A stretch of 64,000 bases of DNA from Pandoraea sp. (GTDB taxonomy: Bacteria; Pseudomonadota; Gammaproteobacteria; Burkholderiales; Burkholderiaceae). The translations under genes and the position numbers were made by a program. Location: positions 1 through 64,000 of the forward strand of contig JARLJF010000097.1 of the NCBI GenBank assembly GCA_031291335.1, in the 5' to 3' direction. The first letter of the stretch is position 1; each line of letters begins with the position of its first letter. Below the pieces are notes generated by a model. That model was not told the origin of the DNA. It saw only the letters and a list, made by a program, of their open reading frames with translations, and did no database searches. Below, piece by piece: positions 23,584 through 25,995 of the stretch.

Positions 23584-25491
23584 TTATTGGAACGTTGCGC
23601 ATTCCTGCGCAATACGTTCGATGAGCGCGTCAACGGGCATCACACCCAGATCCACGCCGCCACGGGCACGCACGGCTACCGTATTCGCCTCCTGCTCCTT
23701 GTCCCCCACTACAACGAGATAGGGAACTTTCTGCATGGAGTGCTCGCGTATTTTATAGCTAATTTTCTCGTTGCGCAAATCGCTCCGCGCCCTAAGCCCT
23801 TGTTCTTTCAACTTTTTCGTTACTTCCTGGGCGTAATCGGCCGTTTTTTCGGACACATTCATCACAATTACCTGTTCCGGCGCGAGCCAGGCCGGCATTG
23901 CACCAGCATGGTGCTCGATCAGAATACCGATGAAACGCTCGAGCGAACCGAGGATTGCGCGGTGAAGCATGACCGGGCGCTTGCGGCTGTTGTCTTCGGC
24001 CACATACTCGGCATCCAGGCGCTCAGGCATCGAGAAATCGACCTGCATCGTGCCACACTGCCATTGGCGGCCGAGCGCGTCCTTGAGCGTGTATTCGATC
24101 TTCGGGCCGTAAAACGCCCCGTCGCCCTCGGCGATCACGAATTCGCAGTTCGAACGGCGCAGCGACTCCATCAGCGCAAATTCGGCCTTATCCCAATTCT
24201 CATCCGTCCCAACACGATGCTCAGGGCGCGTTGCGACCTTGTAAATCATGTCCGTGAAGCCAAAATCCTTGTACACGGCATGCAACAGCGCCGTGTAGTT
24301 CACGCACTCGTCGAGAATCTGGTCTTCCGTACAGAAAATATGACCGTCGTCCTGCGTGAAGCCGCGCACGCGCATCAGACCGTGCAAACCACCCGACGGC
24401 TCGTTGCGGTGGCATTGGCCGAATTCACCGTAACGGAGCGGCAGGTCACGGTAGCTATGCAGCGCCGAGTTGAAAATCAGCACATGACCAGGACAGTTCA
24501 TCGGCTTGAGCGCATAGGCGCGGTTCTCCGATTCCGTCGTGAACATGTTGTCCTTGTAGTTCTCCCAGTGCCCCGACTTCTCCCAGAGCGAGCGGTCCAG
24601 GATCTGCGGCCCCTTCACTTCCTGATAGCCGTTGTTGCGATAGACGCGGCGCATGTACTGCTCGACCTGCTGCCAGAGCGTCCAACCCTTCGGGTGCCAG
24701 AAGATGAGGCCCGGCGCCTCTTCCTGCATGTGGAAGAAGTCCAGTGCGCGGCCGAGCTTGCGGTGATCGCGCTTCTCTGCCTCTTCGAGCATATGCAGGT
24801 ACGCGTCCTGATCTTCCTTCTTCGTCCAGGCCGTGCCGTAGATGCGCTGGAGTTGCTCGTTCTTGGCGTCCCCACGCCAGTAGGCGCCGGCGACCTTCAT
24901 CAGTTTGAAGACCTTGAGCTTGCCCGTCGACGGCACGTGCGGACCCCGGCAAAGGTCGACGAACTTGCCTTCGCGATACAGACCGATTTCGTCCGTGGCC
25001 GGAATCGATTCAATGATCTCGGCCTTGTACTTTTCACCCATCGACATGAACAGACGCACGGCGTCGTCACGCGAAAGCACTTCGCGCGTGACCGGCTCGT
25101 CCTTCTTGGCCAGTTCGTGCATCTTCTTCTCGATAGCCTCGAGATCTTCCGGCGTGAAGGCGCGGTGGAACGCGAAATCGTAGTAAAAGCCGTTGTCGAT
25201 CACCGGACCGATCGTGACTTGCGCCTCGGGGAACAGCTCCTTGACAGCGTAAGCCAGCAAGTGAGCCGTCGAGTGGCGAATGATGTCCAGGCCGTCGGCG
25301 TCCTTGTCCGTGACGATGGCGAGACTTACGTCGCGATCGATCAGATAAGACGTATCGACGAGCTTGCCGTCAACGCGGCCCGCCAGGGCAGCCTTGGCCA
25401 GACCCGTGCCGATCGAACCGGCGACTTGCGCCACCGTCAGCGGGGCTTCGTACTGGCGTTGCGAACCATCAGGCAAACGTACCGAAATCAT
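23584..25491 (-). CDS. thrS: threonine--tRNA ligase
   Basis: TGS + catalytic domains: '[34 protein letters not shown]', '[10 protein letters not shown]'. Confidence 0.97.
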
Positions 25492-25557
25492 GTCGCACTC
25501 CCATGCGCAAAAACGTCACGCGCGGCCAACGCCACGCGGCAAAACCACGAAAAAAAA

Positions 25558-25581
25558 CGGCCTCGACTGATGTCGAGGCCG
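25558..25581 (-). terminator. strong intrinsic terminator / putative thrS attenuator
   Basis: Minus strand CGGCCTCGAC-ATCA-GTCGAGGCCG perfect 10-bp stem followed by T8. Confidence 0.85.
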
Positions 25582-25621
25582 TCTCTTCATTCCTTACATC
25601 CAGACGAAAAACACCCTCGAC

Positions 25622-25669
25622 TTAACGTCGCACCTTCACCACTGTGAAAGTTCGGGCGATCATGAACAT
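25622..25669 (-). CDS. putative leader peptide MFMIARTFTVVKVRR
   Basis: 15-codon ORF with two Thr codons, its stop directly abutting the candidate antiterminator strand upstream of thrS. Confidence 0.4.
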   Translation of the reverse strand: MFMIARTFTVVKVRR

Positions 25670-25731
25670 GAGTGTTTTTTCCAGCGCCTGTGTCTGCGGG
25701 GTTTTCGCGGACTGTAATGCATCAAATTCGT

Positions 25732-25808
25732 TGGTAGGCTCGATTGGACTCGAACCAACGACCCCCACCATGTCAAGGTGGTGCTCTAACCAGCTGAGCT
25801 ACGAGCCT
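25732..25808 (-). tRNA. tRNA-Val(GAC)
   Basis: Cloverleaf AGGCTCG TA GCTC...CTTGACATG...GGTTCGAGTCC...CGAGCCTACCA with encoded CCA; anticodon GAC. Confidence 0.95.
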
Positions 25809-25995
25809 ACTGCAAGAGAACGAGATTCTAGCAAGGTTTCAGCAGGTCGCCAAGCGATTATTGTGCCTGCTGACGAAAAACCGCATCAGGCAAGGTGTTT
25901 GCGCCGATTCCCCCGCAGAGTGGCCGGCACTCGCCCCACACGTTTCCGGTGGTCCGACCGGGCATCGGCCCACCGACAATCATGCAGAAGCCGGA

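Follow-up and report, generated by a model that had tools for sequence, protein, structure and literature searches.

The interval between tRNA-Val and thrS in the Pandoraea genome studied here very probably forms a ribosome-mediated transcription attenuator, which would set the expression of thrS (threonyl-tRNA synthetase, ThrRS) according to the supply of charged tRNA-Thr. The sequence evidence for this consists of conservation of the elements, selection on a short reading frame, specificity for threonine, co-variation of both alternative pairings, and the position of these pairings relative to the stop codon of the leader.

The analysis was centred on a contiguous stretch of 64,000 nucleotides, here called the window, and the features identified are listed in Table 1. 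The gene order derived from the list of open reading frames is thrS-infC-rpmI-rplT-pheS-pheT, with thrS first, and the predicted ThrRS is 99 percent identical to that of P. bronchicola and 98 percent identical to that of P. anapnoica. The putative promoter upstream of tRNA-Val is the sole promoter-like match on the minus strand of the scanned stretch, and is likely to be common to tRNA-Val, the leader and thrS. The downstream genes infC-rpmI-rplT-pheST would probably come under the control of the same attenuator by polarity. An earlier, sequence-only reading had named a short ORF, the strand GTCGAGG, a terminator, tRNA-Val and thrS, and each of these was found on the minus strand where that reading had placed it.

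We note that the gap between rplT and pheS in the window contains a terminator-like hairpin (GGGGGCTCTCATCGGAGCCCCC, positions 22206-22175) followed by a T-rich stretch. No Phe-rich leader resembling E. coli pheM was seen by eye in this gap.

Table 1. Features of the tRNA-Val–thrS region, in order of transcription.
Feature	Positions	Strand	Basis or remark
Sigma-70-like promoter TTGGCG-17-TAGAAT, extended -10	25825..25853	minus	Consensus scan, 9/12 matches
tRNA-Val(gac)	25732..25808	minus	ARAGORN and Rfam RF00005; directly upstream gene
Protector stem, 5' arm AAAAAACACTC	25670..25680	minus	MFE fold; overlaps leader ribosome-binding region
Leader ORF MFMIARTFTVVKVRR + TAA	25622..25669	minus	Sequence; in-frame pN/pS
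CGA, invariant, precedes sensor codons	25654-25652	minus	
Sensor codons ACT(Thr7)-TTC-ACA(Thr9)	25643..25651	minus	Thr at both in 31/31 Pandoraea loci
Hairpin within ORF, ACTTTCAC-AGTG-GTGAAGGT	25632..25651	minus	MFE fold; putative role
Antiterminator strand GTCGAGG, adjoins stop codon	25615..25621	minus	Invariant in 28 closest Pandoraea loci
Protector stem, 3' arm GAGGGTGTTTTTCG	25605..25618	minus	MFE fold; overlaps antiterminator strand
Full antiterminator hairpin, GTCGAGG.. to ..CCTCGAC with inner helix	25572..25621	minus	Predicted at -22.8 kcal/mol prior to synthesis of the terminator 3' arm
Intrinsic terminator, 10-bp perfect core stem (25581-25558) and T8	25550..25588	minus	Sequence, predicted fold; core CGGCCTCGAC-ATCA-GTCGAGGCCG-T8 at 25581-25550
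thrS (threonyl-tRNA synthetase)	23584..25491	minus	ORF; tblastn matches to thrS loci of named Burkholderiales

The threonine-rich leader peptide

The leader ORF, with Thr7 and Thr9 or their equivalents, is kept at all 31 Pandoraea loci once the reduced genome G018 is set aside, and each of these 31 loci has two or more Thr codons in the ORF, a strand for pairing located at the stop codon, and a terminator with a T-run within the tRNA-Val–thrS gap. The leader reads MLKTARTFTVVKVRR in most Pandoraea, and MTTRTFTAVKGRR and MTARTFTEVKARR in more distant members. Of the 31 loci, 25 have a third Thr (codon 4 or its equivalent), encoded by any of the synonymous codons ACT, ACC and ACG; in the window and the five loci most closely related to it, this Thr has been replaced by Ile. 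The reduced-genome relative (G018, locus L033) has lost the leader peptide and has kept a GC-rich terminator-like hairpin with a T-run.

Within Pandoraea, pN/pS (Nei-Gojobori) is 0.23 in the frame of the ORF, as against 13.4 and 2.9 in the other two frames. Judged by these substitutions, the leader frame is under purifying selection, from which we infer that it is translated. The corresponding dN/dS values for the Burkholderia group are weak (0.70 in frame, against 1.23 and 0.97 in the other frames), and the codon argument therefore rests mainly on Pandoraea. The Shine-Dalgarno sequence of the Pandoraea leader is weak, consisting only of ..CTGGAA.. ahead of the ATG, and this counts against an attenuator.

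Searching with BLAST for the leader in genomes other than those of Pandoraea gave nothing convincing. Because the RNA sequence of the leader diverges too fast for BLAST, we used thrS as the search anchor and fetched the regions upstream of it from named and further Burkholderiales. A Thr-rich ORF followed by a terminator precedes thrS at 40 of 50 loci from the rest of the family, at 32 of 47 named Burkholderiales loci, and at 26 of 70 further loci at the level of the order, counted with a strict leader caller. Outside the core families, these counts point to a patchy distribution of the device. The leader peptides include MTPRTLTETTSERR in Burkholderia, MTPRTTTADKRQ in Cupriavidus, MIRAPRTTTASERQ in Ralstonia, MTPRTTTEVFERR in Herbaspirillum, MFFPLARTTTRNFRPMSR in Achromobacter and MFRTTTQAGN in Thauera, and another clade has poly-Thr leaders (for example MTSVFSATTTTTTTPLAW) on an unrelated RNA sequence. 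Across the Burkholderiales, then, the sequence of the peptide changes and its richness in Thr stays.

The enrichment is specific for threonine. At 84 of 172 loci, the region upstream of thrS has a cluster of at least three Thr within five codons, whereas dinucleotide shuffles give 1.65 such loci on average and 4 at most. The runners-up in the same count are Val (31) and Arg (19), neither of them near Thr, and the Val matches are probably false ORFs within the tRNA-Val gene. Some leaders called automatically (MVGVVGS..., L063, L073, L093, L094, L202, L218 and L259) turned out to be false ORFs within tRNA-Val or within coding sequence, and we excluded them manually.

Two further observations concern loci of other kinds. 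One Burkholderiaceae genome has a second, divergent paralogue of thrS (L191), which is also preceded by a poly-Thr leader (..VTTTTTTGNG..) and a terminator. At six mostly xanthomonad-type loci (L105, L114, L116, L119, L122 and L123), a short leader such as MDTTTAQR or MSTTNRPR comes after a conserved GTGCGAC and before a terminator, an arrangement which suggests that thrS may be attenuated there too.

Alternative pairings and the proposed switch

The sequence-only reading had proposed an antiterminator of 7 bp, GTCGAGG:CCTCGAC. This complementarity is present and co-varies across the Burkholderiales, but the predicted antiterminator is far longer, since it combines GTCGAGG with a second helix involving the AATGAAGAGAC side; its segment has a z-score of about -2.7 against dinucleotide shuffles. 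The terminator has a predicted energy of -28.0 kcal/mol in the absence of the antiterminator strand, and once its 3' arm has been made it is predicted to beat the antiterminator at equilibrium (-31.6). The switch must therefore be kinetic, as it is in known attenuators.

Across the Burkholderiales loci, a strand that overlaps or follows the stop codon is complementary to the 5' arm and loop of the terminator. The pairing is kept while its sequence differs: GTCGAGG:CCTCGAC in Pandoraea, TCGAGG:CCTCGA in Burkholderia, GTCAAGG:CCTTGGC in Ralstonia, CTAGTCG:CGGCTAG in Janthinobacterium, and GGTGAGC:GCTCACC at locus L174. Over 77 distinct loci, the native strand from positions -6 to +12 relative to the stop pairs with the terminator 5' arm at an average of -11.5 kcal/mol, compared to -9.1 kcal/mol for permuted partners (z = -8.0, 0 of 2000 permutations, in a test whose z-scores ignore shared ancestry). 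Control windows at -48, -30 and +12 gave no comparable pairing signal at the same loci.

A second pairing joins the start of the leader to the sequence behind its stop. In the window this protector stem pairs AAAAACACTC, just ahead of the ATG, with GAGGGTGTTTTT, just past the stop codon. The start-region and post-stop sequences co-vary (z = -7.2, 0 of 1000 permutations, again with shared ancestry left out of account), and this was the best among the 78 pairs of sequence segments tested. When the leader is untranslated, the predicted stem would hide both the ribosome-binding site of the leader and the antiterminator strand.

The sequence-only reading had also allowed that the terminator might simply end the tRNA-Val transcript. 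On that explanation the hairpin is a constitutive 3' terminator of tRNA-Val, thrS is expressed from its own promoter or by read-through, and the ORF has arisen by chance. A terminator behind a tRNA is an ordinary arrangement, and 108 of the 131 leaders are preceded by tRNA-Val(gac), that of the window directly. However, at about 22 of the 131 loci leader and terminator are both present although the available sequence ahead of them contains no tRNA, and several of these have, in its place, a -10-like hexamer (TATAAT, TACAAT or TAAAAT) before the leader. The terminator persists without an upstream tRNA and is therefore not merely that of tRNA-Val. A chance ORF is contradicted by the selection on its frame, by the specificity for Thr, and by a co-variation that is tied to the position of the stop codon. 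A promoter for thrS downstream of the terminator had been named beforehand as a finding that would speak against attenuation, and a consensus scan of the window found no promoter-like site between the terminator and thrS. The plain tRNA terminator is thus weakened, and we regard it as very unlikely.

The attenuator that we propose would have three states. With the leader untranslated, the start region would pair with the sequence past the stop, GTCGAGG would be hidden, and the terminator would form. With Thr-tRNA plentiful, a ribosome reaching the stop codon would mask GTCGAGG, and the terminator would again form. With Thr-tRNA scarce, the ribosome would stall at the Thr codons and leave GTCGAGG free to pair with the 5' arm of the nascent terminator, so that transcription would read on into thrS. 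It counts against this model that stalling at codon 7 may leave the protector stem physically unblocked, since the 5' arm of the stem lies just upstream of the ribosome footprint. Termination itself, the stalling of the ribosome and the response to threonine are the steps that we infer in this model. The features by which an attenuator is recognized in sequence are present at the locus, namely a short ORF under selection, a cluster of cognate codons, an intrinsic terminator, an antiterminator that excludes it, and a structure that hides the antiterminator strand. The sequence-only reading had first suggested attenuation, and it is supported by the Thr-rich leaders across the Burkholderiales, the selected frame, and the co-variation of the stop-codon strand with the terminator arm. 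It had singled out the peptide, its Thr codons and the partner of GTCGAGG as the elements whose absence in relatives would count against it; all three proved to be conserved.

Operators, riboswitches and the CGA codon

In E. coli, thrS is under translational repression by its own product: ThrRS binds an operator mimicking the anticodon arm of tRNA-Thr, a mechanism that is established for this gene (PMC9976931; PMC11088916). A similar explanation of the Pandoraea locus would have ThrRS binding such a mimic near the start of thrS. Our hairpin scan recovered the E. coli operator (gtgatcTTTCGTGTGggtcac, at -36) as a positive control, and found similar hairpins at 17 of 60 loci from gammaproteobacteria outside the Burkholderiales. 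By contrast, no anticodon-mimic hairpin was found within 140 nt of thrS at any of 201 Burkholderiales loci, the window included. We give an operator of the E. coli type almost no credence here, and the distinction that the sequence-only reading had drawn from E. coli thrS control holds.

The 17 hairpins (L120, L125, L129, L133, L141, L263-L269, L271, L275-L277 and L283) have CGU or GGU in the loop and lie 29-101 nt before thrS; judged by sequence, they appear to be related to the operator of E. coli thrS. tRNA-Val is located ahead of thrS at many of the gammaproteobacterial loci outside the Burkholderiales too. Since tRNA-Val precedes thrS in many members of both groups, the same locus appears to carry two unrelated regulators, depending on the lineage. 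The two share a gene and the aim of matching ThrRS to demand, but the E. coli system is translational repression by ThrRS itself, whereas the Burkholderiales leader would act by attenuation.

A leader that senses a protein or a tRNA directly, as a T-box or other riboswitch would, could carry the ORF as a structural passenger. The tRNA–thrS interval is strongly structured (MFE -72.6 kcal/mol, z = -5.2 against dinucleotide shuffles), and the motif CGAAC is conserved at the nucleotide level, as this explanation would have it. On the other side, Rfam at gathering score identified only the tRNA in the window, and a permissive search of 11 related loci found nothing related: besides the tRNA it returned weak sub-threshold matches to unrelated families, several of them antisense over the tRNA. 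The T-box covariance model had no match in the window at gathering score or at the 11 loci in the permissive search. Moreover, the Thr and other codons drift synonymously under a constraint that is specific to the frame, and the poly-Thr leaders of other clades sit on unrelated RNA sequence. We therefore consider a riboswitch highly improbable, and retain ribosome-mediated attenuation.

The codon before the first Thr deserves comment. Arg is encoded by CGA in 82 of 84 Arg-Thr pairs in the leaders, although only 9 of 214 Arg codons (about 4 percent) in nearby genes are CGA. Among the 132 Thr codons of those genes, ACT (4) and ACA (8) are likewise the two least used. It is conceivable, though we think it unlikely, that the sensor includes CGA itself. 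The ribosome might pause for a set time at CGA, where inosine-dependent decoding would be slow, and thereby become locked to RNA polymerase; alternatively, the leader might integrate two tRNA signals, with decoding of Arg/CGA read beside the charging of Thr. A plainer alternative is that CGAA may be kept through pairing with TTCG past the stop codon. This complement of CGAA occurs after the stop at 46 of 63 loci, compared to 11.3 +/- 3.1 in shuffles, a count that is suggestive only. A permutation of the CGA-codon region against the post-stop sequence gave no signal, in a test left powerless by the invariance of CGAAC.

Relation to known attenuators

The threonine operon of enteric bacteria is headed by a leader (thrL, Rfam Thr_leader) in which a peptide senses threonine through its Thr codons and is followed by a terminator. 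The Pandoraea leader likewise has a Thr-sensing peptide and a terminator, but thrL controls biosynthesis genes rather than a synthetase, and Thr_leader has no Rfam match here. Among synthetase genes, classical attenuators are known for gammaproteobacterial pheST and for Streptomyces trpS and leuS (PMC1262725). The thrS leader resembles these (pheST with its leader pheM) in having a peptide enriched in the amino acid that the synthetase charges, a predicted switch between antiterminator and terminator, and a synthetase gene under its putative control; the synthetase and the amino acid are different. Unlike them, it heads the entire thrS-infC-rpmI-rplT-pheST cluster from behind tRNA-Val, and it has an invariant CGA codon ahead of its Thr codons.

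We found no earlier description of a thrS leader peptide or attenuator in open-access full text, and a description in a subscription journal is possible. No Rfam family for a thrS attenuator was found. If the attenuator is real, it would provide a new RNA family for annotation, and would identify a short ORF in many genomes.

E. coli thrS is the textbook case of a synthetase that represses its own mRNA through tRNA mimicry. If our reading is correct, much of the Burkholderiales, including Burkholderia, Ralstonia, Cupriavidus and Pandoraea, would control thrS by transcription attenuation, and the locus would be a clear example of one regulator taking the place of another at the same position.
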